From: Lactiplantibacillus garii
GTDB taxonomy: Bacteria; Bacillota; Bacilli; Lactobacillales; Lactobacillaceae
Direction: 5' to 3'
DNA: 64,000 bases
NCBI RefSeq assembly: GCF_003885105.1
Contig: NZ_QWZQ01000002.1
Span: 62,001-126,000 of the forward strand
Shown: piece after piece, positions 9,492 through 52,940 of the stretch
Position numbering within the stretch: the stretch's first letter is position 1
Layout: each line of letters begins with the position of its first letter
Translations under genes and position numbers: made by a program
The notes under the pieces: model-generated
What the model saw: only the letters and a program-made list of their open reading frames with translations
Databases searched by the model: none
What the model was told of the DNA's origin: nothing

Positions 9492-9498
9492 TTTGTAT

Positions 9499-9698: not shown

Positions 9699-9717
9699 TT
9701 ACGGCTAAACCACTTAG

Positions 9718-9977: not shown

Positions 9978-9980
9978 AAT

Positions 9981-9997
9981 AGTCAATATTAGTCAAA
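9981..9997 (+). promoter_or_regulatory. CtsR operator (direct heptad repeat)
   Basis: AGTCAATATTAGTCAAA fits the CtsR consensus of two RGTCAAA heptads spaced by three bases, with one mismatch in the first heptad. It covers the expected transcription start, consistent with autorepression of ctsR-clpC and release on heat stress. Confidence 0.88.
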
Positions 9998-10019
9998 GAT
10001 AACGAAAAGGGTGAAGCAC

Positions 10020-10487: not shown

Positions 10488-10505
10488 AGAAAGCGAGGAA
10501 TCGCA

Positions 10506-13010: not shown

Positions 13011-13041
13011 GCAAACAGTTTAAACTGTGACTATTAATGAT

Positions 13042-13087
13042 AAAACCGGTACTATTCCTAATTTTGGGGAATGGTACCGGTTTTGTG
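13042..13087 (+). terminator. Terminator of ctsR-clpC
   Basis: AAAACCGGTACTATTCC pairs with GGAATGGTACCGGTTTT and is followed by a short T tract. Confidence 0.88.
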
Positions 13088-13194
13088 CTTCAACCGAACC
13101 GTTGTTGCCGTTTTTTCGGCAGACTTACTTTGTATCCCCAAGCTGATTGGTGTAGATTATAATAGTAGATAAAAAGGGGAAGGAAGATGATGAA

Positions 13195-13797: not shown

Positions 13798-13814
13798 AAA
13801 AACGGGGTTGCAAC

Positions 13815-13843
13815 TTGACAACCGCTGGTCCAAGCGGTATATT
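13815..13843 (+). promoter_or_regulatory. Promoter upstream of rpoB
   Basis: A perfect TTGACA (13815-13820) and TATATT (13838-13843) are separated by 17 bp, giving a leader of about 200 nt before rpoB. Confidence 0.82.
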
Positions 13844-13913
13844 ATAACTTGTCTGTAACCGTGAACTCGAACAACGGCGCAATCTATTGTCTGCGCGGTT
13901 CGTTAATAATAAT

Positions 13914-13953
13914 CCAAAAATAGTTAACTTAAATGACTATTTTTGGTTTTTTT
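13914..13953 (+). terminator. Terminator-like hairpin in the rpoB leader
   Basis: CCAAAAATAGT (13914-13924) pairs with ACTATTTTTGG (13936-13946), followed by T7. It lies between the TTGACA/TATATT promoter and rpoB, so it either attenuates the rpoBC transcript or ends a short RNA of about 100 nt. Confidence 0.8.
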
Positions 13954-14049
13954 ATGCTCAAAATTCGGTTAATAACGCATTTGTAACATAAATGTAATAT
14001 TTGATTGAACGGCGAGCGGGTTCCGGAATAATAAGAAGGGGTGAACAAC

Positions 14050-17000
14050 TTGGCCGGACATTTAGTAAAATACGGTAAACACCGTACCCGTAGAAGTTAT
14101 GCGCGTATCAAGGAAGTTCTTGATTTGCCTAACTTGATCGAAATCCAAACCGATTCTTACCAATGGTTCTTGGACGAAGGTCTCCGGGAAATGTTTGAAG
14201 ATATTATGCCAATCGACGATTTCGCAGGGAAACTTTCACTTGAATTTGTCGACTATCAACTATTAGAACCAAAGTACACCGTCGAAGAAGCTCGTGAACA
14301 TGATGCCAACTACTCGGCACCATTGCATGTGACCTTGCGTTTGACTAACCACGAAACTGGTGAAATCAAATCGCAAGACGTATTCTTCGGTGATTTTCCA
14401 TTAATGACTGAACAAGGGACGTTCATCATTAACGGTGCCGAACGGGTCATTGTTTCACAATTGGTTCGTTCACCCGGCGTTTACTTCAATGAAGAATTAG
14501 ATAAAAACGGCCGTCCAAGCTACGGTACCACCGTTATTCCTAACCGTGGGGCTTGGCTGGAATTAGAAACCGACGCCAAGAACATCGCCTACGTTCGGAT
14601 CGATCGGACGCGGAAGATTCCGTTAACGGAATTAGTCCGGGCCTTAGGTTTCGGTTCCGACGACGATATCATCGATATGTTGGGTGAAACTGACAGTTTG
14701 ATGAACACGTTGGAAAAGGACGTTCATAAAAACACCGACGATTCCCGGGTCGAAGAATCCTTAAAGGATATCTACGAACGGCTACGTCCTGGTGAACCCA
14801 AAACTGCCGACAGTTCCCGGAGTTTGTTAACGGCTCGGTTCTTTGATCCGAAACGTTACGACTTCGCACCGGTTGGTCGTTACAAGGTCAACAAGAAGTT
14901 AAGTATGAAGACCCGTTTAACTGGTCAAACCTTAGCGGAAACCTTAGCTGATCCCGACACTGGTGAAGTGATCGCGCAAAAGGGCGACGTCATTGACAAG
15001 AACGTGATGGCCAAGTTAGCACCATACTTGGAACGTGACGATTTCAAGACGATCACCTACACGCCTTCCGACGAATCAGTCGTCACTAACCCGATGGTCT
15101 TACAAGTGGTTAAAGTTTACTCCCAAAACGACCCTGAAAAGGTGCTGAACGTGATTGGGAACGGCAACATTGATTTGAAGTTCAAGCACATTTTGCCAGC
15201 GGATATCATTGCTTCCATTAACTACTTCTTTAACTTGCAAGAAGGCCTCGGCACGACCGATGACATTGATCACTTGGGTAACCGGCGGATTCGTTCCGTG
15301 GGTGAATTATTGCAAAACCAATTCCGGATCGGGTTATCCCGGATGGAACGGGTCGTTCGTGAACGGATGTCGATCCAAGACGCCGCAACCGTAACGCCGC
15401 AACAATTGATCAACATTCGTCCCGTGGTTGCTTCAATCAAAGAATTCTTCGGGTCATCACAACTGTCACAATTCATGGACCAAACCAACCCGTTAGGTGA
15501 ATTAACGCATAAGCGGCGTTTATCAGCCTTAGGACCTGGTGGTTTGACCCGTGACCGTGCCGGTTATGAAGTTCGAGACGTGCACTATACCCACTACGGT
15601 CGGATGTGCCCAATCGAAACGCCTGAAGGCCCGAACATCGGTTTGATCAACAGTTTGGCTTCTTACGCCAAGGTCAACCGTTACGGGTTCATCGAAACAC
15701 CGTATCGCCGGGTTGACTGGACGACGCATAAGGTTACCGATAAGATCGACTACTTAGCAGCCGACGAAGAAGACCAATTTGTGATCGCGCAAGCCAACTC
15801 GCCATTGAACGATGACGGTTCGTTCGTTGAAGACACCGTTTTAGCCCGGGAAAAGGAAGAAAACTTGGAAACGTCAATCGAAAATGTCGATTACATGGAC
15901 GTTTCACCTAAACAAGTGGTTGCCGTCGCAACGGCATGTATTCCTTTCTTGGAAAACGATGACTCTAACCGGGCCCTCATGGGTGCCAACATGCAACGGC
16001 AAGCCGTTCCGCTGGTTGATCCGCACGCTCCGTTAATCGGGACTGGGATTGAATACAAAGCGGCCCACGACTCCGGGATCGCCTTGATCTGTCGTCATGA
16101 AGGGACCGTTGAATACGTTGACGCGCGTGAAGTTCGCGTTCGCCGCGACGATGGTTCGCTTGACACTTACAAATTAATGAAATTCCGCCGGTCAAACGGT
16201 GGTAAGAACTATAACCAACGGCCAATCGTTAAAGTCGGCGACCACGTCGATAATGACGAAGTCTTAGCCGACGGGCCAGCCATGGAAGGCGGGGAATTAG
16301 CCTTAGGTCAAAACCCATTAGTAGCCTTCATGACTTGGAACGGTTATAACTTCGAAGATGCCATCATCATTAACGAACGGTTAGTTCGCGAAGATGTTTA
16401 CACTTCGATTCACATTGAAGAATACGAATCAGAAGCGCGTGATACGAAGTTAGGACCTGAAGAAATGACCCGCGAAATCCCTAACGTTGGGGAAGACGCT
16501 TTGAAGAACTTGGACGAAGACGGGATCATCCGGATCGGTGCCGAAGTTAAAGACGGTGACATCTTAGTTGGTAAGGTAACGCCTAAAGGGGTTACGGAAT
16601 TATCAGCCGAAGAACGGTTACTACACGCCATCTTTGGTGAAAAGGCCCGTGAAGTCCGGGATACCTCACTGCGGGTTCCTCACGGTGGCGGCGGGATCAT
16701 CCAGGACGTTAAGATCTTTACCCGTGAAAACGGGGACGAACTTTCACCTGGTGTTAACATGATGGTCCGCGTTTACATCGCGCAAAAGCGGAAGATTCAA
16801 GTTGGTGACAAGATGGCCGGTCGTCATGGTAACAAGGGGACCGTTTCCATCGTGGTACCGCAAGAAGATATGCCGTACATGCCAGACGGGACGCCAATCG
16901 ATATCATGTTGAGTCCCATGGGTGTGCCTTCACGGATGAACATCGGACAAGTTTTGGAATTGCACTTGGGGATGGCCGCACGTAAGCTCGGTATCCACAT

Positions 17001-17655
17001 GGCCACACCAGTCTTTGATGGGGCGCGTGATTCTGATATTTGGAAGGCCGTTCGTGAAGCCGGTGTCGACGAAGACGGTAAGTCAATCGTCTACGATGGT
17101 CGGACCGGGGAACCTTTCGACAAGCGGATTGCCGTTGGGGTCATGCACTACATGAAACTTAGCCACATGGTCGATGATAAGATCCACGCCCGTTCAATTG
17201 GACCGTACTCCTTAGTTACGCAACAACCCCTTGGTGGGAAAGCGCAATTTGGTGGCCAACGGTTTGGTGAAATGGAAGTTTGGGCCCTTGAAGCGTACGG
17301 GGCAGCCTACACCCTTCAAGAAATCTTGACTTACAAGTCCGATGACGTGGTTGGTCGGGTTAAGACCTATGAAGCCATCGTTAAGGGTGAACCAATTCCT
17401 AAGCCGGGTGTGCCGGAATCCTTCCGCGTGCTGGTTAAAGAATTACAAGCACTGGGCCTTGATATGAAGGTGCTGGATGCTGACGATAAAGAAATTGAAT
17501 TGCGGGACATGGACGATGACGACGATGAAGTGGTTAACGTGGATGCCTTAAGCAAATTCCAACAAGAACAACAACAAAAGGCCGCTGACAAGTCGGGTAA
17601 GACCGATACAACGACGACTGAAGCAACAACGAACGCGCACCAGGATAATCAATAA
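14050..17655 (+). CDS. rpoB: DNA-directed RNA polymerase subunit beta
   Basis: A 1201-residue beta subunit. TTG 14050 gives the conserved start [20 protein letters not shown] and is preceded by GGGGTG; the frame also opens at GTG 14041, which overlaps that ribosome site. The rifampicin region ([20 protein letters not shown]) has the usual sensitive-type residues. The conserved [12 protein letters not shown] and [20 protein letters not shown] segments are intact. The tail is acidic (DDDDDE), then Gln/Thr-rich and likely disordered. It is followed 17 bp later by rpoC. Confidence 0.98.
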
Positions 17656-21380: not shown

Positions 21381-22058
21381 TTAGTTGCCGAACTGCGTGC
21401 AGAGCACGAAGCCCCAGGTCATGAACGGCACGAAGGGGAGTCGGCGCGCGGAGCGGCGGTCCAAACTAAACGTGACTAGTGCGGCAAAGGCAGCGAGGGT
21501 CAGACTTGTGATGACCGTTACCGGGGGCGCCAGGCAGCTGAGCATGAGTAAAACGTCCACGTCGCCCATGCCAAATTTGGCCGAGTAGCGGGCCAGCAAA
21601 AACAACCCGAGCAGTAACCCGCCTAAAATGACTAAGGGCATGTCGGGGAAGGGGAATCCCCCCATCAGTCCCAACAGGGCGGGAGGCAGCAGCGTGATTG
21701 GATACACCGTGAACTGGAGGGTGTCGGTCAGGCTGTTAAAAAACAGCACCGCGTACCCGCAGAGCAGGGCCAGATTGGGTTGCGGGAAACTGGTCAGGGC
21801 CAACGTTCCGCAAAGTAATTCGACGTAACTGGAACGCAAGTTGATCGGGTGGTGACAGTCCCAGCAGCGGCCCCGCTGAATCAACACGCCAATCAGCGGC
21901 AGGAGCTGCCACCAGCGCAACTGCCGCAAACAAGTCGGGCACACGGACCGCTGGCGATTAAGCAGCGGTCGCGCGGCACAGGTCCGTTCCGCCATACAAG
22001 TAATAAACGACCCCACGCAGGTGCCGCAAATAAATAGGTAACCGGATAATAAAAGCAA
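21381..22058 (-). CDS. comC: Prepilin peptidase / N-methyltransferase (A24 family)
   Basis: A 225-residue polytopic membrane protease that cleaves type IV-like prepilin leaders; in Firmicutes the substrates are the ComG pseudopilins of the DNA-uptake machine. GSF at residues 16-18, the CxxC pairs Cys40/Cys43 and Cys65/Cys68, and the two catalytic aspartates Asp112 (SLTD) and Asp166 (GMGD) are present. The start is TTG at 22058 with GGGAGGGAG just upstream. It converges on rpoC. No comG genes are in the window, so function in competence is inferred from the family. Confidence 0.9.
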   Translation of the reverse strand: MLLLSGYLFICGTCVGSFITCMAERTCAARPLLNRQRSVCPTCLRQLRWWQLLPLIGVLIQRGRCWDCHHPINLRSSYVELLCGTLALTSFPQPNLALLCGYAVLFFNSLTDTLQFTVYPITLLPPALLGLMGGFPFPDMPLVILGGLLLGLFLLARYSAKFGMGDVDVLLMLSCLAPPVTVITSLTLAAFAALVTFSLDRRSARRLPFVPFMTWGFVLCTQFGN

Positions 22059-40699: not shown

Positions 40700-41083
40700 A
40701 TGAGTTACCGTAAATTACAACGTACAAGTTCACAACGTCGTGCCTTACTCCGTGATTTAACGACTTCATTGATCGTTAACGGTAAGATCGAAACGACTGA
40801 AGCACGTGCTAAGGAAGTTCGTTCAACTGCCGACAAGATGATCACTTTGGCAAAGAAGGGTGATTTAAGCGCCCGTCGTCAAGCTGCTACCTTTATGCGT
40901 GACGTCGTTGCCGATGTTAAGGAAGATGGCGACAACGTGGCTGTACAAACCGCTTTGCAAAAGCTATTTAGTGACTTAGGTCCTCAATACGCTGACCGCA
41001 ATGGTGGGTACACACGAATTTACAAGACTATGCCTCGTCGTGGCGACGGTGCACAAATGGTTGTCTTGCAACTCGTTGACTAG
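40700..41083 (+). CDS. rplQ: 50S ribosomal protein L17
   Basis: 127 residues. [20 protein letters not shown] and the C-terminal [20 protein letters not shown] are typical. It is the last gene of the alpha operon, and the conserved rplQ-ecfA1 junction is interrupted right after it. Confidence 0.98.
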
Positions 41084-41383: not shown

Positions 41384-42376
41384 TTAGTTATGCCGAGTCA
41401 GTAATTGAGTGGTGAGTTGGATCAACGCATCCTTGGCCGGCTGGTTTGGTAACTTATTTAATAGTCGCAGCGCGTCGTGGGTGTACTTCTCGGCGAGCTG
41501 TTGGGCCCGCTGGACACCGCCCGCGGCAATTACGATGGCTTGCAGTTCACGGCGTTGTTCGTCCGTAATGGCCCCTTGGAGGCGCATCAGGGGCAGCAGG
41601 TCGCGGCGGGCCGTCGTTTGTAAGGCGAAGATCAGTGGGGAGGTGTAGACGCCCTCAGCGACGTCTTCGAGGACCGGCTTTCCCGTTTCTTGACTAGCTT
41701 CCTGGTAATCAAGGATGTCGTCCAAGATTTGGAAAGCCATCCCGATGGCCATGCCGGCTTTACGGGCCCGTTGCGCGAAGAGCGTGCTTTCACCGGATTC
41801 GAACGCGCCCAAGAAACAGCTCAGCGCGAATAGTTCGGCCGTTTTCCCCTGGATCTGTTCTTTATATTCGTCCATGGTAATGTCGATGCGGTAATGGCGG
41901 TCCTTTTGCTGGACCTCACCAACTAGAATCTTTTCCATGTTTTCGGAGTTTAGTTGGATACTCTTAAAACTGCTGGAGTACTTGGCTAAAATCTTAAAGA
42001 CGACGACGAACAGGTAGTCGCCGGCGTACACCGCAACGTCTTTACCGAAGCGGGCCTGAATGGTCTCCTGGTGCCGGCGCAGTTCCGAGTCGTCAATGAT
42101 GTCGTCGTGGATCAGCGTTGCCGTGTGCAGGGTCTCTAAGGACGCGGCTAAGGCGATCATCCGGTCACGGTCGGTCTCTTTAAACTGGGAAAATAGTAGG
42201 CAGTAGGCGGGACGCAGGAGCTTACCACCGCTGTGAATCATGTCAACGATGGCGTCGGAAACGGCGCTATCCTGAATATTAATGTTATCGGTCATGAGTT
42301 GCATGACTTTGCTTAGTTCCGGCTGCATCGCCGGATAATCACGCCAGATGGGGTGTAATTGCGTTGCCGATTGCAT
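41384..42376 (-). CDS. Polyprenyl diphosphate synthase for the EET quinone
   Basis: 330-residue trans-prenyltransferase. The first Asp-rich motif DDIIDD begins at residue 91 and the second, DDILD, at 219; GGKLLRPAYCLL (50-61) is the substrate-binding region. It makes a C30-C40-type prenyl diphosphate, probably the side chain of a demethylmenaquinone. In Listeria and L. plantarum EET loci the equivalent is called DmkB or HepT. It lies 6 bp after eetB. No MenA-like prenyltransferase (DmkA) is in the window. Confidence 0.88.
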   Translation of the reverse strand: MQSATQLHPIWRDYPAMQPELSKVMQLMTDNINIQDSAVSDAIVDMIHSGGKLLRPAYCLLFSQFKETDRDRMIALAASLETLHTATLIHDDIIDDSELRRHQETIQARFGKDVAVYAGDYLFVVVFKILAKYSSSFKSIQLNSENMEKILVGEVQQKDRHYRIDITMDEYKEQIQGKTAELFALSCFLGAFESGESTLFAQRARKAGMAIGMAFQILDDILDYQEASQETGKPVLEDVAEGVYTSPLIFALQTTARRDLLPLMRLQGAITDEQRRELQAIVIAAGGVQRAQQLAEKYTHDALRLLNKLPNQPAKDALIQLTTQLLTRHN

Positions 42377-42382
42377 AAATTG

Positions 42383-42952
42383 TTACTCCTTTTTTTCGCT
42401 TGGGTGTTTTTCGTGGTTAAACCGTAAGTAGCTAAGAATCGTCACGTGCGTAAACAGGTAGTTGGCGGCGATTCCGAGGGCGATGCCGGCTGCGAGGCCG
42501 ATGATCGACATGGCCGGCAAATATAACATCACCGTCCACGTCTGGGCGATCAGACTCGCCACTAGTAATTGCCCAACGTTGTGCATCACGCCCCCCGTCG
42601 CAGAAATGCCAATGATGCTCACCCGTTTCGGCCCGAGTAGTTTGACGAGCAGCATCGAAAACAGGCTGAGAAAAGCACCACCAAAGCTGTACAGGAACGT
42701 GGACATGGTTCCCCCCAGTAGGGCGGTCAGAATCAGGCGCAACCAGGTCAGCGTGATGACGTCACGGAACGACAACGTAAAAATGGCAACGATGGTGATT
42801 AAGTTGGCCAACCCCAATTTGGCCCCCGGTGCAAACGCAAACGGGAAGGGAATCATCCGCTCTAAGATCCCGATGATCACCCCTTGAGCAACCAGGAGGG
42901 CAATGTAAATATTGCGATGGGTCTTGTTTGATTGTCCAAATGAATTATTCAA
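42383..42952 (-). CDS. eetB: EET-associated membrane protein EetB (Gx transporter family)
   Basis: 189 residues with five to six predicted membrane segments. The sequence ERMIPFPFAFAPGAKLGLAN and GATGGVMHN-like SATGGVMHNVGQLL are typical of the family annotated as heptaprenyl diphosphate synthase component I or Gx transporter, which resembles ECF substrate-binding subunits. In Listeria EetB is required for extracellular electron transfer; its exact role is not settled. It lies 5 bp after eetA, so the two are co-transcribed. Confidence 0.85.
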   Translation of the reverse strand: MNNSFGQSNKTHRNIYIALLVAQGVIIGILERMIPFPFAFAPGAKLGLANLITIVAIFTLSFRDVITLTWLRLILTALLGGTMSTFLYSFGGAFLSLFSMLLVKLLGPKRVSIIGISATGGVMHNVGQLLVASLIAQTWTVMLYLPAMSIIGLAAGIALGIAANYLFTHVTILSYLRFNHEKHPSEKKE

Positions 42953-42957
42953 TAGTT

Positions 42958-43449
42958 TTACTCCGTAACTAGCCCGTTACCGCCGGACTTGACGTGTCCG
43001 CTATCCGACTTGATCTCGATCAAAACCTTATGCGGCAAACACACGATGGTCTGTCCGGGTTTCGTGATCCAGCCGCGACGGATGCAAACTTGGTCACTAC
43101 AGTTGGCCTTCGTAATGGCCACTTTGTGGGGCTTAAAGGTCACCGTATTGTAGTCACCGTCCTTAGCGCGGTACGTGTAGTGGGTGGTTTTACTCAGGGT
43201 GGTCAGGTTGACCCGTTTGAGCACCGTCCCGTTATGGGAAACGACGGCGGTGTAATCCGTCCGGCGTTTTTGGGCGCGCTGTTTGGCAACCTGCTCGGCC
43301 CGCTGGGCTTGTTGTTTTTGCTGGTATGAAAAAATAACTATCGGGGTAAACGATAAAATAATCAAGGCAATAATAATAATAATATCAAAAGGCCGAATCA
43401 TACCGCCGTAACGTTTGAGCACGTCAACGGTTGCCCGTAACTTCTTCAT
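42958..43449 (-). CDS. eetA: EET-associated protein EetA (NusG domain II)
   Basis: 163 residues. One membrane anchor (21-41) is followed by a charged stretch and an extracytoplasmic NusG domain II (about 65-150) with three cysteines (117, 122, 137) in the conserved NCSDQVCIRRGWI and GQTIVCLPHKV segments. In Listeria EetA is part of the extracellular electron transfer pathway. AAAGGAGGG precedes the ATG at 43449. It starts 96 bp after ndh2 ends, with a terminator between. Confidence 0.87.
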   Translation of the reverse strand: MKKLRATVDVLKRYGGMIRPFDIIIIIALIILSFTPIVIFSYQQKQQAQRAEQVAKQRAQKRRTDYTAVVSHNGTVLKRVNLTTLSKTTHYTYRAKDGDYNTVTFKPHKVAITKANCSDQVCIRRGWITKPGQTIVCLPHKVLIEIKSDSGHVKSGGNGLVTE

Positions 43450-43473
43450 CGTTAGCCCTCCTTTTTTCGTGGC

Positions 43474-43514
43474 ATAAAAAATGGTTCAAGGGGAAAAAGC
43501 CACCCTCGAACCAT
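43474..43514 (-). terminator. Terminator between ndh2 and eetA
   Basis: On the minus strand ATGGTTCGAGGG pairs with CCCCTTGAACCAT, followed by T6. It would end most ndh2 transcripts, with read-through or a separate promoter needed for eetA. Confidence 0.85.
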
Positions 43515-43532
43515 CGGGAAACTATTCAATTA

Positions 43533-43561
43533 ATTATAACGCATCTAGCGGGTTTTGACAG
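43533..43561 (-). promoter_or_regulatory. Possible eetA promoter at the ndh2 stop
   Basis: On the minus strand CTGTCA (43561-43556) and a perfect TATAAT (43538-43533) are separated by 17 bp. A transcript from here would meet the terminator hairpin within about 15 nt, so its activity is doubtful or controlled. Confidence 0.4.
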
Positions 43562-45455
43562 CATCGTAATGTGAACGAACGTTGCCGTACCACCAGTGCC
43601 CGAGGTGCTTTTGCATCCACGGAACGACCCAGTAGTCCAAACCAAATGTCCGGCCGGAACCGTTCATTAAGGCGAGGGCCACGAAGACCATCCAGATGTT
43701 GACCCAGTAGAACATCCCTGACAAGCAGAAGACGACGACTAAGCCGATCGTGATGGCGTTCGCTAACCAGCTGAACAAACCAAAGAAGATGCAAAGGGCG
43801 ATAACGATTTCCACGCAGGTCATGAACTTCTGGAAGAAGAGCGCCATCTGCATGTTTGGTACGAAGACCTTAGTAACGGATTCGAACCAGTGTGGCATCT
43901 TGTCAAAGACCATCAACGGTTCCTTACCATACATGTAAGATAAACTGAAGACACCTTTGGCAGCCTTCGTGGTTGCGGAAGCGGCTTCGGAAGCACCGCT
44001 GGTTGCGGCCGCCTTAGTTGCTTGACTAGCACCACTCGTAGCGGCAGCTTGTAACCAACTAAACGGTAAGCGCAACTTGTCGGTGAACCAGGATTCAGAA
44101 CCCTGAACCTTCGTCCAGCAGTCCCACAGCCACATCGCACCGTAGAAGAACCGGAGTGGGACACTCCACAAAACGTTACCGGCACGTGAAATCCAGCCAC
44201 GCCCGAGGTTCCGACCGTTGCGGGTCCGGAAGAATTCGTGCATGAAGTACTGGAAGAGGTAGTAGCCGGAGAAAATCTGGCAGTAGTACAACCAGTTGAT
44301 CGCGTGCTTCAAGAGAACGGCGATGAAACCGGAAACGTTCCAGTGGTCCATAACTTGGGCAACGGCGTACTTAGACCCAATTGAGTCCACGGAAGCTTGG
44401 TAAGCACCCTTGAACGGTTTGATTTCTTTGCTGCCGCCGTCCACGTTCTTGATAATTCCTTCAACCGCTTTAGCAGCCGTTTCTTCGGCCCCTTGAACGA
44501 TTTGAGGAACTGGCCGTGGTTGGTCGGGTTCTTGGTAGCTGGTCGAGTCACCGGCTAATAAGACGTTCTTGGTGTCCTTAGCTTGCATGAACTCGTTGGC
44601 AATTAAACGACCCCCACGCGGGTTGGTTTCAATCCCGAAGTTCTTAACCACGCTGTTAGCCCGCACACCGGCGGTCCAAATTAACGTATAGGTCGGAATT
44701 GGATCCTTGCCCTTTAAGTTAACGTGGTCTTCGAAGACTTCGGTGATCATGGAGTTGGTCATAATATCAACGCCATGTTTAGTCATGTACTTTTCAGCTT
44801 TACCGGCTTGCGTCCGGTTGAGCATGTTGATGATGGTTGGTGCCGCTTCAACTAATTGAAGGGTGATCTCGCTCGGGTCCAACTTGTTTTCCTTCGCTAA
44901 GACGTCCCGGTATTCAATTAATTCACCGACTAATTCGGAACCAGTAAAACCGGACCCGCAGACGGTCAGCGTTAACATTGCTTTCCGTTTAGCCGGATCA
45001 AGTTCGGCCGCACCGCGCCGGATGATGGCCGCTAAGTGAGCCCGTAAGGCCATGGCCTGTTCAAATGACCACAGTTCAAAACCGTGTTCCTTAACACCGG
45101 GAGTTCCGAAGTCGTTGGATTCCCCACCTAAACTAATGAGGAGTTGATCATATTGATAACTTCCATTTTGAGTGGTAACAACTTGTTTCTCCTTATCAAC
45201 GCCGGTTACCGTGTCGGTAACTAGGCGAACATTCTTCCGCCGTGCGAACAACCGTTGCAAATCGTATTGGATATGCCCTGGTTCCACCCGTTCAGTGGCT
45301 ACTTCATGTAGTTCGGTCATGTACGTGAAGTATGAATGCCGATCGATAAGCGTGATCTCAACGTCCGGGTTCTTCTTAAAATGCTTGGACAGTTTCTTGG
45401 TCGCGTAGACACCGGCAAACCCCGCACCGACAACGACAATGTTTTTCTTTGCCAT
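43545..45455 (-). CDS. ndh2: Type II NADH dehydrogenase of the EET pathway, with C-terminal membrane extension
   Basis: 636 residues, against about 400 for ordinary Ndh. Residues 1-370 are the flavoprotein: FAD motif GAGFAG (10-15), NADH motif CGSGFTGSELVGEL (166-179) and LLAGDS (299-304). Hydrophobic segments follow at about 373-450, then an Ala/Ser-rich linker (470-500) with a repeated AAATSGAS, then a membrane block (535-600) resembling DoxX proteins. This extended form is the Ndh2 that feeds a separate demethylmenaquinone pool for electron export in Listeria. The ATG at 45455 has AAGGGAG upstream; the frame opens 17 codons earlier without a ribosome site. It is divergent from pplA. Confidence 0.92.
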   Translation of the reverse strand: MAKKNIVVVGAGFAGVYATKKLSKHFKKNPDVEITLIDRHSYFTYMTELHEVATERVEPGHIQYDLQRLFARRKNVRLVTDTVTGVDKEKQVVTTQNGSYQYDQLLISLGGESNDFGTPGVKEHGFELWSFEQAMALRAHLAAIIRRGAAELDPAKRKAMLTLTVCGSGFTGSELVGELIEYRDVLAKENKLDPSEITLQLVEAAPTIINMLNRTQAGKAEKYMTKHGVDIMTNSMITEVFEDHVNLKGKDPIPTYTLIWTAGVRANSVVKNFGIETNPRGGRLIANEFMQAKDTKNVLLAGDSTSYQEPDQPRPVPQIVQGAEETAAKAVEGIIKNVDGGSKEIKPFKGAYQASVDSIGSKYAVAQVMDHWNVSGFIAVLLKHAINWLYYCQIFSGYYLFQYFMHEFFRTRNGRNLGRGWISRAGNVLWSVPLRFFYGAMWLWDCWTKVQGSESWFTDKLRLPFSWLQAAATSGASQATKAAATSGASEAASATTKAAKGVFSLSYMYGKEPLMVFDKMPHWFESVTKVFVPNMQMALFFQKFMTCVEIVIALCIFFGLFSWLANAITIGLVVVFCLSGMFYWVNIWMVFVALALMNGSGRTFGLDYWVVPWMQKHLGHWWYGNVRSHYDAVKTR

Positions 45456-45669
45456 TGCGTAACAACTCCCTTGAATAATAATGTAAAATAATAATTCCAC
45501 TAACAATTATAACGATAATGTAAGCGGTTGTCTATGGATTATTGAACAGAATGCATAATATATCACATTGCCGATGGCCCGAATGAAGTGGTAACCGGAG
45601 TAGATTAGGTGAACCGCTCTCATTTGCGCTGTTATCAGCATAAAATACTATTATTTTGTTAAAATATGA

Positions 45670-45698
45670 TTGACTAATTTAATTTTAAACGTTAAGAT
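45670..45698 (+). promoter_or_regulatory. Promoter of pplA
   Basis: TTGACT (45670-45675) and TAAGAT (45693-45698) are separated by 17 bp. The 284-bp gap between the divergent ndh2 and pplA starts holds no gene. Confidence 0.72.
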
Positions 45699-45739
45699 AA
45701 ATGTGAATTTTCATACAAAAAGGTTAGGAGTGGGATATT

Positions 45740-46663
45740 ATGAAGTTTAAATCAGTTTCTGCAGTTGCGTCAGTCGTTGCAATTTCAGCATTAGCCTTAG
45801 CAGGTTGTGGGAGCAGTTCGTCAAGTTCTAGCTCATCATCATCAAAGAAGAGTTCATCATCGAGCTCAGCTAAGACCACCAAGGTTGCTAAGTTAACCGC
45901 CGGCAGCAAAATGAAAGCGGGTACTTACAAACTCGAAGAAGAAAACTACTCATACGGTTACCGTACTAAGATGAGCATCACCGTTAACAGCAAGGGCAAA
46001 ATCACTAAGTCCAGTTATGATCAAGTGAATAAAAAGGGTAAGTCCAAAGTTGACGATACGTCGTACAACAAACAAATGAAGAAGGGCTCCGGGACTAACC
46101 CGAAGGCTTACATTCCTAAGTTGAACAAGGCTTTGACGACCAGCGCTGCAACTGGTAACGTAGGTTCAATTGACGTTGTTACGGGTGCAACGGAATCTTC
46201 CAAGACTTTCCAAAACTACACGCAACAATTAGTTCAAGCCGCACAAGCTGGCGATACTGCTACCATCAAGATCAACAACGGCAAGAAGATGAAGGACGGG
46301 ACTTACAAGTTAGCTGAAAAGAACTACTCACACGGCTACCGGGTAACGTTTGCCATCACCGTTAAGAATGGTAAGATTACGAAGTCAGACTATGACAACG
46401 TAAACAAGAAGGGCAAGTCCAAGGTTGACGACGCTGCTTACAACAAGCAAATGAAGAAAATCGCCAAGACTAATCCAAAGGCTTACCAACCAGCTTTGAA
46501 CAAGTCATTGGTTAAGAGCAGTGACCCAACTAAGGTTGACGTTGTTACGGGTGCAACTGAATCATCCAACACCTTCGTTTTGTATGCTGAACAATTACAA
46601 AACGCGGCACAAAAGGGTGACACTAAGACCATCTCCGTTGACAACATGATCTTCGCTGAATAA
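45740..46663 (+). CDS. pplA: Flavinylated electron-transfer lipoprotein PplA
   Basis: 307 residues. Signal peptide with lipobox LAGC (Cys23), then a serine-rich linker to about residue 45. Two FMN-binding domains follow (about 55-170 and 180-295), each with the covalent attachment motif DVVTGAT; the acceptor threonines are Thr151 and Thr273. The domains are near repeats of each other (both have YNKQMKK and NKKGKSKVDD). ApbE is expected to attach FMN through a phosphoester bond, and the protein would carry electrons from the membrane to outside acceptors. TAGGAG precedes ATG 45740. Confidence 0.94.
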   Translation: MKFKSVSAVASVVAISALALAGCGSSSSSSSSSSSKKSSSSSSAKTTKVAKLTAGSKMKAGTYKLEEENYSYGYRTKMSITVNSKGKITKSSYDQVNKKGKSKVDDTSYNKQMKKGSGTNPKAYIPKLNKALTTSAATGNVGSIDVVTGATESSKTFQNYTQQLVQAAQAGDTATIKINNGKKMKDGTYKLAEKNYSHGYRVTFAITVKNGKITKSDYDNVNKKGKSKVDDAAYNKQMKKIAKTNPKAYQPALNKSLVKSSDPTKVDVVTGATESSNTFVLYAEQLQNAAQKGDTKTISVDNMIFAE

Positions 46664-46683
46664 GAAATTAAGCATTATTAAAG

Positions 46684-46720
46684 TAGGAGCCTGAGGCGAA
46701 AGCTGAGGGCTCTTTATTTT
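46684..46720 (+). terminator. Terminator of pplA
   Basis: GGAGCCTGAG and a GGGCTC arm around a GCGAAAGC core are followed by a T-rich tract. The array of palindromic repeats begins directly after. Confidence 0.65.
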
Positions 46721-46721
46721 T

Positions 46722-46850
46722 AGAGTGTAGTAAAAGGCGGGAGCTTCCGAGCATTGCCTAGCTATTGGTGGAATGGCGGGTTTTGCCATTTTGCCGATAG
46801 CGTAGCAAGCGGAAGAGGCTGCCTTTCACTACACGTTTCGGCACCCAAGG
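46722..46850. repeat. Palindromic intergenic element, copy C (long nested hairpin)
   Basis: The ends resemble copies A and B: AGAGTGT at 46722, AAAAGGCGG, AGCT, GAGCATT on the left, and AAGCGGAAGAGGCTG with CACGTTTCGGCAC on the right. GTGTAGT pairs perfectly with ACTACAC, CTTCCG with CGGAAG, GCTAT with ATAGC and AATGGC with GCCATT, giving four nested stems. Confidence 0.75.
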
Positions 46851-47160
46851 TAGGGCGGGCCTGGCCATTGTTGGTTAACCGTAGCTAAGCGGAAGAAGTT
46901 GCCCCCACGAGCACGTTTCGGCACCCAAGGAATGGCGGGTTTTGCCATTTTGCCGATAGCGTAGCAAGCGGAAGAAGCTGCCTTTCACTACACGTTTCGG
47001 CACTCTAGGTAAGGCGGGCTTTGCCACGATTGCGTTAGCGTAGCAAGCGGAGGAGGCTGCTCCCCACACACGTTTCGGCACCCAAGGTAGGGCGGGCCTT
47101 GCCATTGTTGGTTAATCGTAGCTAAGCGGAAGAAGTTGTCCCCATGAGCCCGGTTTGCGG
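46835..47160. repeat. Tandem array of about 80-bp units derived from the palindrome
   Basis: GTTTCGG recurs at 46835, 46915, 46994 and 47072 (spacing 80, 79, 78), and a decayed copy GTTTGCGG at 47153. Each unit carries GGCGGG, a GCCATT or GCCATTG, AGCGGAAGAAG or AGCGGAGGAGG and CACGTTTCGGCAC. No ORF with a ribosome site covers it. Confidence 0.8.
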
Positions 47161-47245
47161 GGAGGGTGGACAGCGAATAGTATGTATAGTTACGTCTATC
47201 ACATAGTAGTGCAAAGTTCACGGTGAATTTACAAAATAAATTGTG

Positions 47246-47271
47246 AACAATGTGTTGGTTCGCACATTGTT
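47246..47271. promoter_or_regulatory. Perfect inverted repeat upstream of apbE
   Basis: AACAATGTG and CACATTGTT are separated by 8 bp, about 50 bp before the apbE -10 box. There is no T-tract, so an operator is as likely as a terminator. A GTTCAC/GTGAAC pair (about 47216-47248) overlaps it. Confidence 0.5.
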
Positions 47272-47315
47272 TCTGAAAGGGTTTTAAATTCGGTATCACT
47301 GGGTTATAGAAACTT

Positions 47316-47324
47316 TGGTATAAT
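47316..47324 (+). promoter_or_regulatory. Extended -10 promoter of apbE
   Basis: TTGGTATAAT contains an extended -10 (TGGTATAAT) ending at 47324. No clear -35 is seen. Confidence 0.6.
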
Positions 47325-47358
47325 TACGATTGAAATTATATGTAGGGGAAGTAAAGAC

Positions 47359-48474
47359 ATGAAACTGAGAAAATTGGTTCAGTTAGGTTTAGCAGTGGCC
47401 ATGGTAGTGCCACTGACCGCTTGTGGGACGAGTACGAGTTCTAAGGGGGCCGCTAGCAGTAGCCGGCCCAAACCCACGAAGGTAGTTCAGACCCCGTCTG
47501 AAGATACCCAGTTTATGATGGGGACCGTGGTTACACTGCGGGTTTATAACAAGGGTAAGGATAACGTGATCGACGGGGCCTTTAAGCTGCTTAAAAAAGA
47601 AGCTAAGGAAGTCACCGTTAATCAGAAGGGGTCGGAAATCGATAAGATCAACGCGGCCGCCGGTAAACATCCGGTCACCGTTAGCAAGGACCTTTACCCG
47701 ATGCTCAAGGCGGCTTACTACTATAGTAAGAATTCCGACGAGTCGTTTGACATGGCAATTGGGCCCATTACCCAGTTATGGCACATCGGGTTCTCCGACG
47801 CGAAGGTCCCGACTCAAAAGGAAATTGACACCAACGTTAAACTGGTCGACTACACCAAGGTCAAATTGAACGACCAGAAACGCACGGTCTACTTGGAAAA
47901 GAAGGGCATGCAACTGGACTTAGGCGGAATCGCCAAGGGTTACATGGCCGATCAAGTGAAGACTTATTTCTTGAATCACGGCGTTTCGACCGCCATTATT
48001 GACTTAGGTGGTAACATTTACGTCTTGGGTGACAGTCCAAAGGGCACCAAGTCTGGTAACTGGACGGTTGGTATCCAAGATCCGAAGGCTTCCCGGGGAA
48101 CGGCGATCGGCTCGGTTCCCGAAAAGAACATGTCGATCGTGACGTCCGGGATCTACGAACGTTATTTGAAGAAGAACGGTAAGGTCTATAGTCATTTGAT
48201 GGACCCTAAGACCGGGGCACCGTACCAAAACAACTTGATGGGCGTTTCAATCATCTCGAAGAAGTCCACGGACGGTGACGCCTTGTCAACGGCAACCTTT
48301 GATAAGGGGCTGAAGGACGGGATGAAGTACATTAATGGCAAGGCCGATGAAGGTATCGGGGCCATTTTCATCACCAAGGACAAAAAGGTCTACGTTTCAA
48401 ATAACTTAAAGAAAAAGTTTACGTTGTTTGGTGACAACGGCTATAAATACGGACCGACTAGTGATTTGAAATAG
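47359..48474 (+). CDS. apbE: FAD:protein FMN transferase (ApbE), lipoprotein
   Basis: 371 residues. Lipobox LTAC (Cys22) anchors it outside the membrane. The ApbE domain has SFDMAIGPI (129-137), DLGGIAKGY (187-195), DLGGN (215-219), HLMDPKTG (279-286) and TDGDALST (304-311), which bind FAD and magnesium. The enzyme transfers FMN from FAD to threonine in TGAT motifs, and the adjacent pplA supplies two such sites, so this is its likely partner (FmnB in Listeria). It is separated from pplA by the repeat array and has its own promoter. Confidence 0.94.
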   Translation: MKLRKLVQLGLAVAMVVPLTACGTSTSSKGAASSSRPKPTKVVQTPSEDTQFMMGTVVTLRVYNKGKDNVIDGAFKLLKKEAKEVTVNQKGSEIDKINAAAGKHPVTVSKDLYPMLKAAYYYSKNSDESFDMAIGPITQLWHIGFSDAKVPTQKEIDTNVKLVDYTKVKLNDQKRTVYLEKKGMQLDLGGIAKGYMADQVKTYFLNHGVSTAIIDLGGNIYVLGDSPKGTKSGNWTVGIQDPKASRGTAIGSVPEKNMSIVTSGIYERYLKKNGKVYSHLMDPKTGAPYQNNLMGVSIISKKSTDGDALSTATFDKGLKDGMKYINGKADEGIGAIFITKDKKVYVSNNLKKKFTLFGDNGYKYGPTSDLK

Positions 48475-48521: not shown

Positions 48522-49367
48522 ATGGTGAGTCCGATTATTGACGTTGAACATTTGAATTACCGCTACCCGCAACAGCCAGCGGACGAATTAACGCTGCGCG
48601 ACGTTTCGTTTTCGATTGCGGCGGGCGAATGGGTCGCCATTGTCGGGCACAACGGTTCGGGTAAGTCGACGCTGGCGAAAAACATCAACGGGTTGTTGGC
48701 CCCGGCTTCGGGGACGATTACCGTGGACGGCCAGGTGCTGGCGGAAGACACGGTCTGGGACATTCGGCGCAAAATCGGGATGGTTTTTCAAAACCCCGAT
48801 AACCAGTTTGTCGGTGCGACCGTGGCTGACGACGTGGCGTTTGGCTTGGAAAACCAGGGCGTTTCCCGCGAGGAGATGCTAACGCGGGTCCCGGCGGCGT
48901 TAAAGCAGGTCAACATGCAGGACTTCGCGACCCGTGAACCGGCCCGCTTATCCGGTGGTCAAAAACAACGGGTGGCGTTGGCTGGGATGATTGCGGCCCG
49001 CCCGCAGATCCTAATTTTGGACGAAGCGACTTCGATGCTGGACCCGCGTGGCCGCGAAGAAGTCTTGGCCACGATTCGCCAGATGAAAGCCGCTTCGGAT
49101 CTGACGGTGCTGTCGATCACCCATGACATTGACGAGGCTGCCAGTGCGAACCGGATCCTGGTGGTCAACGACGGACAATTAAAAGAAGAGGGCACCCCGG
49201 CGGAGATTTTTAAACACGGGGAAGACCTGATCAAAATGGGACTGGACATGCCCTACGCCGAACGTTTAAAGGCGGCGCTAAAACGGCAAAACGTCCAGGT
49301 TCCCGCAACTTACTTAACGGAGAAAGGGATGGCGGACTGGTTATGGCAATTACGTTCAAACAAGTAG
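48522..49367 (+). CDS. ecfA1: ECF transporter ATPase EcfA1
   Basis: 281 residues. Walker [10 protein letters not shown] (42-50), [14 protein letters not shown] near 143, Walker [10 protein letters not shown]. With EcfA2 and EcfT it forms the shared energising module for exchangeable vitamin-binding S subunits such as RibU. No S subunit gene is nearby, so this is a group II module. It overlaps ecfA2 by 25 bp. Confidence 0.94.
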
Positions 49368-50230
49368 ATTTTACTTACCAACCGGGCACCCCCTTTGAAA
49401 CTAAGGCGTTAACCGACATTAACCTAACGATTCCGGACGGTTCCTACACCGCGTTGATTGGGCACACCGGGAGTGGGAAGTCCACCCTGTTGCAACACTT
49501 AAACGCGTTATTAAAACCAACCAGCGGGACCGTCACGATTGGTGAACGGGTGATTACGCCGGAAACCAGTAATAAGGATTTAAAAAAACTGCGCCAACAC
49601 GTGGGCATCGTTTTTCAGTTTCCGGAAAGTCAGCTGTTTGAGGAGACCGTCGCTAAGGACATCGCCTTTGGCCCGCAAAATTTTGGGGTCAGTGAAGCCG
49701 ACGCGCTTAAAACGGCTGCCGAAATGTTAGACTTGGTCGGTTTGGACCAGTCGTTACTGGACCGCTCGCCGTTTGACCTCTCCGGGGGCCAGATGCGGCG
49801 GGTCGCGATTGCCGGCGTGTTAGCTATGCAGCCGCGGGTACTGGTTTTAGACGAACCCACGGCCGGGCTTGATCCGCAGGGCCGGCTGGACATGATGGAA
49901 ATGTTCGCCAAGCTGCGGCGTGAACGGGATTTGACGGTTGTTTTGGTCACCCACCAAATGGACGACGTTGCCAACTACGCCGACCACGTGATCGTGATGG
50001 ATCAGGGGCGGGTCGTCAAGACCGGCGCTCCGCGGGAGATTTTTAAGGACCCGCAGTGGCTGGTGGCCCACCAACTGGGCCTACCGAAAACGACGGCCTT
50101 TGCCCAGCAGCTGATCGACCGCGGCTGGCAGTTTGACCGGATGCCGCTGACTGAAGACGAACTAGCGGCCGACTTGATTGCACAGTTGCCGGCCACGGCG
50201 TTTGGGGGTGCACCGACCGATGATGAATAA
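49343..50230 (+). CDS. ecfA2: ECF transporter ATPase EcfA2
   Basis: 295 residues. Walker [10 protein letters not shown] (40-48), [17 protein letters not shown] and [16 protein letters not shown] are intact. It is the second ATPase of the ECF heterodimer. ATG 49343 lies inside ecfA1 and its own end overlaps ecfT by 11 bp, so the three genes are translationally coupled. Confidence 0.94.
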
Positions 50231-51020
50231 GCTGATTTTTGGTCGCTACATTCCGGGCGATTCCGTGATCCACCACATGGATCCGCGGGCTAAATTATTA
50301 CTGAGCTTTTATTTTATTGGAATTATTTTTATCGCGAATAACTGGCTGACGTACCTGCTATTGTTTGCCTTTACCTTTTTGGCAATTACGCTGTCGGGTG
50401 TCAAGTGGTCGTTTTTCATTAACGGGGTCAAGCCGTTGATTTGGTTGATCTTGTTCACGGTGGTCTTACAGATCTTGTTTAGTGCCAGTGGCGGCCACGT
50501 TTACTGGCACTGGGGCATTATCACGATCAGCCAACTGGGCCTGATCAACGGGGCGTACATCTTCTGTCGCTTCGTCTTGATCATCTTTATGTCCACGCTG
50601 CTGACGCTGACGACGCCCCCGTTGGAACTGTCCGACGCCATCGAATACATTCTGATGCCGCTCAAAGCCGTGCACTTTCCGGTGTACGAAGTGGCGTTAA
50701 TGTTATCGATTGCGCTGCGGTTCGTGCCAACGTTGATGGACGAAACCGAAAAGATCATGAACGCGCAACGGGCCCGCGGGGTCGACTTTGGGGAAGGCAA
50801 CATCTTCCAACAAATGCGTGCCGTGGTGCCGTTACTGATTCCCCTGTTTGTCAGCTCGTTTAACCGGGCTGAGGACCTGGCGACCGCGATGGAAGCCCGG
50901 GGTTATCAGGGCGGTGAAGGTCGGAGCAAGTTTCGGATTTTGAAGTGGCACGCCCGCGATTCGTGGGCGACCGTCAGTTTTGCCGTGTTAACGGCGGCGC
51001 TGATTTTCTTAAGAGCGTAG
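50220..51020 (+). CDS. ecfT: ECF transporter transmembrane subunit EcfT
   Basis: 266 residues with about five to six membrane segments. Two coupling motifs of the Ala-Arg-Gly type, RARG (in [14 protein letters not shown]) and EARG (in [10 protein letters not shown]), contact the ATPases. ATG 50220 follows GGGGGTG; the frame opens at 50178 without a ribosome site. The EcfT scaffold recruits S subunits for riboflavin and other vitamins, which is relevant to the flavin-dependent genes upstream. Confidence 0.94.
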
Positions 51021-51026: not shown

Positions 51027-51062
51027 AAGTTGGTACGGCCAGTTGGGCGCACCAACTTTTTC
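51027..51062 (+). terminator. Hairpin with T-run between ecfT and truA
   Basis: AAGTTGGT (51027-51034) pairs with ACCAACTT (51051-51058), followed by T residues. It lies only about 17 bp before the truA start, so termination may be partial. Confidence 0.7.
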
Positions 51063-51078
51063 AATCATGGAGGGTATT

Positions 51079-51876
51079 GTGACAACCAGGTATAAAGTAG
51101 TTTTGGCGTATGACGGCACCAACTTTGCCGGCTTTCAGCGCCAACCGCACCAGCGGACCGTTGAACAGGTTTTTAGTAAGGCCGTCAATAAAATGGCTAA
51201 GGATCCGGCTGAACCGATCATGATTTACGGTGCCGGGCGCACCGACGCCGGGGTACACGCCTTTGGGCAAACGATTCACTTTGATTTGCCGTACGCGATC
51301 AACGCCGAGGGAGTGCGCCGGGGGCTCAACAGCCTGTTGCCGACCGACGTGCTGGTCAAGTCGGCCGCCATCGTCGCCGACGATTTTCACGCGCGGTACG
51401 ACACGGTCGGCAAGCGTTACTGGTACCGGGCGTACCAAAACGAGTTCGTCGACCCGTTTAAGCGCCACTACACCGGCCACTTCAAGTTCCAAGCGGACAT
51501 TGACCGGATTCAGCGGGCGTTGCCCGACCTAGTCGGCAAACACGACTTTTCAAGTTTTGTGGCGTCCGGTTCGCAGGCCCACGACCACGTGCGGGAAATT
51601 TATTCCGCGACTGCCTGGGCGCTTCCGGGTGAAGGCGAGATTCAGTTTGAATTTTGCGGGAGTGGTTTTTTGTACAACCAGGTACGCATCATGGTGGCCG
51701 TGCTGATGGAAATTGGTCAGGGCCGGCGGGCGGTTGACTGCATTCCGGCGTTGTTAGCGGCGCAAGACCGTGAACAAGCACGGGGGACCGCCCCGGCGTC
51801 CGGCCTTTACATGAAAAAGGTGTACTACGACGCGGCCGAATTACGGGCGGACCTGGCTAACGATCCCCACCAATAA
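51079..51876 (+). CDS. truA: tRNA pseudouridine(38-40) synthase TruA
   Basis: 265 residues from GTG 51079. The catalytic aspartate is Asp56 in GAGRTDAGVHAFGQ. GSGFLYNQVRIMVAVLMEIG is the conserved C-terminal motif. It isomerises uridines 38-40 in the tRNA anticodon arm. GGAGGG is close (about 5 bp) to GTG; the in-frame ATG 51067 overlaps this site and is less likely. Confidence 0.94.
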   Translation: MTTRYKVVLAYDGTNFAGFQRQPHQRTVEQVFSKAVNKMAKDPAEPIMIYGAGRTDAGVHAFGQTIHFDLPYAINAEGVRRGLNSLLPTDVLVKSAAIVADDFHARYDTVGKRYWYRAYQNEFVDPFKRHYTGHFKFQADIDRIQRALPDLVGKHDFSSFVASGSQAHDHVREIYSATAWALPGEGEIQFEFCGSGFLYNQVRIMVAVLMEIGQGRRAVDCIPALLAAQDREQARGTAPASGLYMKKVYYDAAELRADLANDPHQ

Positions 51877-51888
51877 TTAGTGTGGGGG

Positions 51889-51917
51889 GCGACAGGACGC
51901 TGAAAATGTGGTAGACT
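51889..51917 (+). promoter_or_regulatory. Promoter of rplM-rpsI
   Basis: GCGACA (51889-51894) and an extended -10 TGGTAGACT (TAGACT at 51912-51917) are separated by 17 bp. The leader to rplM is about 165 nt; a ribosomal-protein leader (L13 type) is possible but was not verified. Confidence 0.55.
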
Positions 51918-52090
51918 GTTCACTCGTGTTCGATTGCCAGTTTTGGTGGCCGACACGCTTACTGAAAACGAATTAAAGATTGACTTCTGAAGCTAAGTTA
52001 GGTAAACTAATCGTTGGTATTGTTTGCCCCACGATAAGCCCCGGAAATCTTATTGAGTGTCAAGCAAAACAGAAAATGGAGGAACACAAC

Positions 52091-52534
52091 GTGCGTACAA
52101 CATATATGGCTAAACCAGGTGAAATTGAACGTAAATGGTATGTAGTTGATGCAACCGATGTACCTATGGGTCGCTTATCTACTGTCGTAGCATCAATCTT
52201 ACGTGGTAAGAACAAACCCACCTTTACCCCTAACGTGGATACTGGTGACAACGTTATTGTTATTAATGCAAGCAAGGTCGCTTTGACTGGGAAGAAAGCA
52301 GAAAAGAAGATTTATTATCATCATACTGCTTATGCTGGTGGTTTAAAGGAACGGACTGCCGGTGACTTCTTAGCTAAGGAACCTACTAAGTTAATTGAAA
52401 CTTCAGTTAAGGGTATGCTTCCTCACAACTCTTTAGGTCACAAGATGGGCTTGAAGTTGCATGTTTATGCTGGTGCAGAACATACGCAACAAGCACAAAA
52501 GCCTGAAGTTTTGGACATCACTAACTTAATCTAA
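52091..52534 (+). CDS. rplM: 50S ribosomal protein L13
   Basis: 147 residues from GTG 52091 ([20 protein letters not shown]), behind [26 protein letters not shown] and the [11 protein letters not shown] segment are diagnostic. The frame is open further upstream, but this region is the leader. It is followed 13 bp later by rpsI. Confidence 0.98.
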
Positions 52535-52547
52535 GGAGGAAACTACA

Positions 52548-52940
52548 TTGGCTCAAGTACAATATCGCGGCACAGGCCGTCGTAAAGATTCAGTTGCCCG
52601 CGTACGTTTAGTACCAGGTACTGGTAAAATTGTTATGAATGATAAGTCCGTTGAAGACTACATTCCATTTGCAGATATTCGCAAGGAATTGTTACAACCA
52701 TTCGAAGTTACTGAAACCTCAGATCAATACGATGTTTTAGTTAACGTTAATGGTGGTGGCTTCCATGGTCAAGCCGGCGCAACTCGTCATGGGATCGCTC
52801 GGGCATTGCTCGAAGTTGACCCTGATTTCCGTACTCCATTAAAGCGCGCGGGTCTCTTAACTCGTGACGCTCGTATGAAGGAACGTAAGAAGCCAGGTTT
52901 GAAGAAAGCCCGGAAAGCTTCACAATTCTCAAAGCGTTAA
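52548..52940 (+). CDS. rpsI: 30S ribosomal protein S9
   Basis: 130 residues from TTG 52548. [20 protein letters not shown] and the C-terminal [17 protein letters not shown], whose last residues reach the P-site tRNA, identify it. TAAGGAGG is the ribosome site. Confidence 0.98.

Follow-up and report, generated by a model that had tools for sequence, protein, structure and literature searches.

The window analysed here comprises 64,000 nucleotides of Lactiplantibacillus garii (contig NZ_QWZQ01000002.1, positions 62,001 to 126,000 of the forward strand), and this study concerns the genes that lie in it between rplQ, at the end of the alpha operon, and ecfA1, in an energy-coupling factor (ECF) module. 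The locus is confirmed as a two-armed flavin-based electron-transfer (FLEET) locus, with a leftward arm hepT-eetB-eetA-ndh2 and a rightward arm of pplA and apbE in the window sequence. A sequence-only reading had placed six genes for extracellular electron transfer in two divergent arms at this junction, and Pfam and NCBIfam profiles bear this out gene for gene and position for position, with scores far above cut-offs or chance. The features, in window coordinates, are as follows:

40700..41083, + strand: rplQ, end of the alpha operon, left flank (PF01196, 125.8 bits)
41384..42376, - strand: hepT-type long-chain polyprenyl diphosphate synthase (PF00348, polyprenyl_synt, 209.6 bits; two DDxxD motifs)
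42383..42952, - strand: eetB, ECF substrate-subunit-like protein (PF07456, Hpre_diP_synt_I, 156.6 bits)
42958..43449, - strand: eetA, membrane-anchored NusG domain II protein (PF07009, NusG_II, 104.4 bits)
43545..45455, - strand: ndh2, FLEET-type type II NADH dehydrogenase with a membrane C-terminal extension, 636 aa (PF07992, Pyr_redox_2, 132.6 bits; start by comparison; trees)
45456..45739, no strand: divergent promoter region of ndh2 and pplA, 284 bp (alignment of genus genomes; promoter scan)
45740..46663, + strand: pplA, lipoprotein with two FMN_bind domains and two TGAT motifs (NF041941, 438 bits)
46770..47135, no strand: about 4.6 diverged 79-bp tandem repeats between pplA and apbE (TRF, repeat search, genus search)
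47359..48474, + strand: apbE, lipoprotein transferring flavin mononucleotide (FMN) from flavin adenine dinucleotide (FAD) to protein, FmnB role (PF02424, 281.4 bits)
48522..51020, + strand: ecfA1-ecfA2-ecfT, housekeeping ECF module, right flank, proposed EetB partner (Pfam and NCBIfam profiles; EcfT tree)
51043..52940, + strand: truA-rplM-rpsI, remainder of the ancestral ecf operon, used as an anchor

The intergenic gaps of the left arm measure 5-95 bp, 47 bp separate the end of apbE from ecfA1, and rplQ and hepT are convergent. PplA scored 438 bits against the NCBIfam model NF041941 "extracellular electron transfer flavoprotein PplA" (cut-off 325) and matched FMN_bind of Pfam in two stretches (48.7 bits). 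Its TGAT motifs at residues 148-151 and 270-273 we take to be flavinylation motifs, and the motifs in the lipoprotein-type N-termini of both PplA and ApbE are presumably lipoboxes. The ndh2 gene had been given as 43545-45506 (-); the gene stands there, but its start is most likely the ATG at 45455 (636 aa) and not the TTG at 45506, because in five of eleven genus genomes the open frame, at 637-641 aa, leaves no room for the TTG. Ndh2 has full-length matches in congeners and in other genera. No gene for the UbiA prenyltransferase DmkA was found in the rplQ-ecfA1 interval, and three UbiA genes lie on other contigs of the genome. The missing dmkA was not taken as excluding FLEET membership, because dmkA and dmkB mutants of L. 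plantarum keep their current and lose little iron reduction (PMC9888254).

Named relatives of the window EetB, in L. xiangfangensis (96%), an uncultured Lactobacillus bin (96%), L. plajomi (93%) and other Lactiplantibacillus, place the genome in this genus. EetB was present in 21/21 Lactiplantibacillus genomes, and the order hepT-eetB-eetA-ndh2|pplA was identical in all 20 congeners, for each of which one stretch was read. In these stretches rplQ was in view in 19 and ecfA1 in 18, while the complete rplQ-to-ecfA1 interval was covered in 17, the other three being cut by contig ends; L135, filed as L. plantarum, shows the identical FLEET order beside both rplQ and ecfA1. The spacing between rplQ and hepT is 7.4 kb in L024 (~9925-17362) and 5.8 kb in L034 (~4203-9961), as opposed to 0.3 kb in the window. 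The FLEET arrangement is ancestral to the genus, and within Lactiplantibacillus there is no insertion. The system and its activity are already published for this genus: FLEET was described in L. plantarum, where iron reduction depends on ndh2 and, conditionally, on pplA (PMC8837199), and was called highly conserved in the genus, with Ndh2, FmnA/B, ATPase 1/2, DmkA, EetB/DmkB, PplA and EetA listed (PMC9888254). The L. plantarum NCIMB8826 locus shares ndh2, eetA, eetB, pplA and the prenyl synthase with the window (PMC8837199; PMC9888254). FmnA/B and ATPase 1/2 are given as locus parts in L. plantarum (PMC9888254); judging from the EcfT tree, FmnA and ATPase 1/2 of that list are most likely the ordinary housekeeping EcfT, EcfA1 and EcfA2.

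Outside the genus, the rplQ-ecfA1 interval was read in one or two genomes of each of 39 other genera of the family (41 loci; among the genus codes, g1 is Lactiplantibacillus, g12 Lacticaseibacillus, g34 Loigolactobacillus and g30 Oenococcus). The gap was empty (92-472 bp) in 23 of these genera, held other open reading frames (ORFs) in eight and held ndh2 with or without hepT in five (g7, g8, g17, g39, g21), and ecfA1 was absent from the stretch in three (g18, g19, g20) as well as in one of the two g23 genomes. Twenty further stretches came from Ndh2 search matches and were fetched before their neighbours were known. In these, ndh2 adjoins both ecfA1 and rplQ in 5/5 g21, 7/7 g17 and 1/1 g7 genomes, adjoins ecfA1 with no rplQ in the stretch in 2/2 g19 genomes, g20 and one incompletely assembled g30 genome (G203), and lies away from ecfA1 in 2/2 g14 genomes (neighbours cydAB-like by eye) and 1/1 g36 genome. 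Beside ecfA1, g7, g8, g17 and g39 carry hepT-ndh2, and g21 and g19 carry ndh2 alone; eetB, pplA and apbE are absent from the stretch in all six. Wherever hepT and ndh2 are both present near ecfA1, strand and order are constant. The g7, g8, g17, g39 and g21 loci share place, strand and Ndh2 clade with Lactiplantibacillus but differ in that eetA is missing from the stretch too and Ndh2 is shorter (507-581 aa). In g20, hepT-eetB-ndh2-dmk lies immediately upstream of ecfA1, an intermediate between the complete locus and its trimmed forms.

The sequence-only reading regarded FLEET as an insertion at the rplQ-ecfA1 junction and proposed the comparison across Lactobacillaceae as a check. Its own refuting condition, the same genes at this place in related genomes, applies within the genus. 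The insertion stands only on a deep time scale: in the reconstructed Bacilli ancestor the ecf operon follows the operon of rplQ (PMC8046335), relative to which FLEET at this place is derived, and the 23 empty genera agree. A recent insertion special to the species or genus could also draw on these empty gaps, but the arrangement is common to all congeners in view and the ndh2-ecfA1 link, shared with eight other genera, is older than Lactiplantibacillus, so that such an event is refuted at the species level and as a whole hardly credible.

The family contains a second place for FLEET. PplA exceeded the curated cut-off in 32/251 family genomes (g1 11, g12 11, g26 3, g34 3, g28 2, g30 2). The Lacticaseibacillus and Loigolactobacillus loci have the same left arm and orientation as the window, with pplA in most loci read and apbE in Lacticaseibacillus only. 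They differ in carrying dmk genes and in their place, which is the far end of the ribosomal cluster: nusG is close by, and sigH, where visible, flanks the locus on its other side. A FLEET whose pplA arm points toward nusG was found in these two genera, in g26, g28, family f2 and Pisciglobus; sigH stands on the hepT side in part of the nusG-proximal loci, and dmk genes lie between FLEET and the anchors in g12, g26 and g34. Neither the sigH nor the nusG anchor is visible in the g34 loci L092, L094 and L137. In Trichococcus the FLEET genes lie beside sigH with rearranged arms, and in two f5 loci they lie near nusG on a single strand. By anchor, 12 loci have both sigH and a divergent nusG, 10 have nusG alone and 6 have sigH alone; these counts contain duplicates (L121 repeats L107, and the genomes of L084 and L087 recur as L161 and L197). 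In 79 loci that carry ndh2, both anchors are out of view; they comprise short stretches of Lactiplantibacillus (11 loci) and, among others, the majority of the Enterococcus loci and every Listeria locus. Lacticaseibacillus carries its full FLEET away from the housekeeping ecf genes, and the FLEET of Loigolactobacillus and Enterococcus is likewise away from them.

All four Lactiplantibacillus genomes read, the window genome among them, have an intact sigH-nusG site without FLEET. The rlmB/sigH-nusG interval held no FLEET gene in 10 of 11 further loci from nine other genera, and in the eleventh (g17) the upstream neighbours of nusG differ, none of them belonging to FLEET. The arms are oriented alike at both sites, the hepT arm facing the upstream operon and the pplA arm the downstream one.

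An Ndh2 tree of 48 rows was rooted on other families, with position labels set by the author. All 19 rows that stand beside a housekeeping ecfA1 (nine genera) form one clade together with g14 (95/92), the linkage to ecfA1 changes state twice on this tree, and constraining g1 with Loigolactobacillus was rejected (approximately unbiased test, p-AU 0.0018). The Lactobacillaceae Ndh2 form one group against the other sampled families (100/100). A housekeeping tree was built from RplQ, TruA, RplM and RpsI, with the ECF genes left out and no outgroup; the ndh2-ecfA1 clade largely follows its branching, and the order g20,(g19,(g30,((g7,g39),(g8,g17)))) is identical in both trees. In the EetB tree g1 joins g20 (96/90).

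From the gene content, the positions, the empty old site and the gene trees, all of them observed, we infer the direction, single origin and mechanism of a move. FLEET would originally have stood at the opposite end of the ribosomal cluster, near sigH-nusG, and would once, in an ancestor common to at least eight other genera, have moved with its orientation kept to the downstream alpha-ecf junction; Lactiplantibacillus would have retained the whole FLEET at ecfA1, and other descendants hepT-ndh2, ndh2 alone or nothing. To the whole account, namely a complete Lactiplantibacillus FLEET, an ancient single relocation to the alpha-ecf junction and a probable export of FAD by EetB with the ECF module, we assign a probability of about 0.78. 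The move may have occurred by duplication of the block from FLEET through alpha and subsequent loss of opposite copies, as in the SNAP model (PMC8046335). This is suggested because each arm points the same way within the cluster at either site, and it is only a suggestion because one event provides one orientation test. A relocation from one end of such a strongly conserved operon cluster to the other, which preserved orientation and left the former site vacant, would be a clear case for testing cluster rearrangement. In the literature searched, we found no description of the rplQ-ecfA1 position, the sigH-secE position or a move between them, nor of FLEET history and its ECF partner in lactobacilli.

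The old FLEET near sigH-secE could also have been lost and a new one received at rplQ-ecfA1 by horizontal transfer. The FLEET Ndh2 and EetB of g25 and Oenococcus group with those of Lacticaseibacillus and g26, unlike in the housekeeping tree (EetB group 90/88, unstarred), and FLEET seems to have been transferred in these two; however, the single Lactobacillaceae group of Ndh2 and an ecf-linked clade that largely tracks the housekeeping branching make such an arrival improbable at the junction itself. More improbable still is that ndh2 and hepT reached a permissive rplQ-ecfA1 gap independently in several genera. The other ORFs found there in 8/39 genera, and HepT proteins in g7, g8, g17 and g39 that are very distant from that of g1, would fit such a landing site, but all ecf-linked Ndh2 fall into one clade with two state changes, and strand and order do not vary.

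Several points weigh against the single relocation. The Ndh2 tree places g1 with g20 (92/89, unstarred), and the housekeeping tree places it with g21/g14/g16 (98/96). The HepT tree (46 of the 48 rows of the first Ndh2 tree) is uninformative, with HepT of g7, g8, g17 and g39 on a 3.4-long branch away from g1. Long branches are also present in Ndh2, so that some attraction is possible, and g14 falls inside the clade without linkage to ecfA1. The clade was first seen in an earlier Ndh2 tree and the labelling was not blind; the rows added later (g19, g20, G203 and more g21 and g17), whose neighbours were not known when they were fetched, agreed with it. The Oenococcus and g25 FLEET were scored as unlinked, their ecf genes being extra copies. 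The place near sigH-nusG would be ancestral across the order only by extrapolation, as most Enterococcus loci and every Listeria locus have both sites out of view. In g19, nusG is found within ~7 kb of an ndh2 that also adjoins the ecf block.

As regards function, Ndh2 would oxidise NADH at the membrane and send electrons via a quinone acquired from outside and EetA to PplA, to which ApbE would attach FMNs outside the cell, and PplA would then reduce iron or electrodes. L. plantarum makes no quinone of its own (PMC10746273). Electron export through flavinylated PplA, as proposed in the sequence-only reading, is well supported by homology and by the work on L. plantarum, in which export depends on ndh2 and pplA, the latter being needed under some conditions only (PMC8837199; PMC9888254). 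The FAD required by ApbE would probably be exported by the substrate subunit EetB together with the adjoining EcfA1-EcfA2-EcfT. In Listeria, EetB serves as the substrate subunit of an ECF exporter of FAD whose T subunit, FmnA, is dedicated to it; EetB shares EcfA/EcfA' with the importer, and its authors conclude that export apparently cannot run on EcfT in place of FmnA (PMC9973259). The Listeria FLEET loci (L. grayi L104 and L194; L102 and L103, assigned by group code) have the same order hepT-eetB-(eetA)-ndh2|pplA-apbE at 36-60% protein identity. However, their last genes are dmkA and a dedicated ecfT in the FmnA role, and neither rplQ nor nusG adjoins them in the stretch. EetB of the window carries an ALLVA (AxxxA) motif at residue 18, presumably an ECF-related feature. 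From these sequence comparisons, EetB may export FAD by way of EcfA1/A2 and a T subunit.

In the EcfT tree the FLEET-linked T genes form two clades, g25 with Oenococcus (100/98) and Listeria with Niallia (97/96), and the window EcfT, a housekeeping copy, belongs to neither. The window genome has four T-family matches, of which one is strong (186 bits, the neighbour of the locus) and the other three reach at most 84 bits; a T-family profile search and the EcfT tree yielded no dedicated FmnA-like export copy in it. None was seen in the Lacticaseibacillus FLEET loci read, and four of the six Lacticaseibacillus genomes searched (G031, G098, G124, G228), all with a full FLEET, have a single T-family match each. 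As no dedicated T was found, EetB in these lactobacilli would have to use the housekeeping T or not export. A tentative possibility, to which we give slightly less than even odds, is that in lactobacilli the ordinary vitamin-importing module of one EcfT and EcfA1/EcfA2, without FmnA, also powers the EetB-dependent export of FAD for ApbE, unlike in Listeria; in Lactiplantibacillus, FLEET would have come to lie against this module after one move. Should a single EcfT serve import as well as FAD export, lactobacilli would depart from the Listeria pattern, in which export has a T subunit of its own, and this bears on how the direction of ECF transport is set. Against FAD export by EetB, EetA and EetB of L. 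plantarum were modelled as electron carriers or as part of quinone synthesis, and deletion of eetA/B abolished the riboflavin-dependent current and part of the iron reduction but spared the current dependent on 1,4-dihydroxy-2-naphthoic acid (DHNA) (PMC9888254). These data do not decide the role of EetA and EetB.

The sequence-only reading went further and suggested that the position beside the ECF module may help couple flavin supply to ApbE. Given the role of EetB in Listeria (PMC9973259), a coupling of FLEET to the module is a plausible and good hypothesis. In its strongest form FLEET would have been selected for its place beside ecfA1-ecfA2-ecfT, because EetB needs the module for FAD export, with import and export co-ordinated. 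This would agree with the shared EcfA/EcfA' of Listeria, with the 47 bp between apbE and ecfA1, and with the additional ecf genes of FLEET copies elsewhere, an ecfT in Listeria and g25 and a whole ecfA1-ecfA2-ecfT set in Oenococcus and in Niallia (where truA is not in view); in three lineages whose ecf block lies away from rplQ (g19, g20, G203), ndh2 still adjoins ecfA1. However, g21, g19, g7, g8, g17 and g39 keep ndh2 at ecfA1 in stretches that lack eetB, pplA and apbE, for which reason inheritance alone could explain the position. In addition, the FLEET of Lacticaseibacillus, Loigolactobacillus and Enterococcus lies away from the housekeeping ECF genes, and the convergence of rplQ and hepT may make breaks on the rplQ side easier. 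Selection for this position is rather unlikely, albeit less so than transfer or independent arrival.

The promoter region between ndh2 and pplA contains blocks conserved in at least 20 of the 21 genus genomes in the alignment, one of which takes in a sigma-A-like site for pplA, and a conserved TGtAA.CG.TTGTC element. The promoter scan placed the pplA site at 45670-45698 and a site for ndh2 at 45534-45506; with 7 promoter-like sites observed and 8.2 expected in shuffles, the region shows no excess. A search for a catabolite-repression site there gave no strict match. In the repeats at 46770-47135 two types alternate with a period of 159. The array was found in the window genome only, with scattered partial copies in the genus (matches in 13/21 genomes), and having been considered as a component of the mechanism it was set aside on this ground as probably outside it.

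Some further observations were made along the way. In g25 and g29, ecfA1 is immediately preceded by an ORF of ~170 aa (L082:893-1417, L065:709-1215, L061:754-1263) that weakly resembles the PplA model, and the two tested had no Pfam match. In the g19 genome G153 (L217, L218, L235), the ecf block, ndh2 and nusG-rplK-rplA are a few kb apart, without the rpoBC-to-alpha part of the cluster between them. The Oenococcus locus L098 (G161), with ndh2 split in two frames and pplA incomplete, seems to be decaying. In the g38 genome G238 (L097), a pplA fragment and apbE stand at a contig end with neighbours metS-tatD-rnmV-ksgA-like by eye, and no other FLEET gene is visible. G256, G061, G019 and G069, from four genera, have NusG_II matches of 68.5-68.7 bits with the same two kinds of internal stop, as if they shared an element or a contaminant. 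Finally, a prepilin-peptidase-like gene (A24_N_bact) at 21381-22058 (-) of the window directly follows rpoC.

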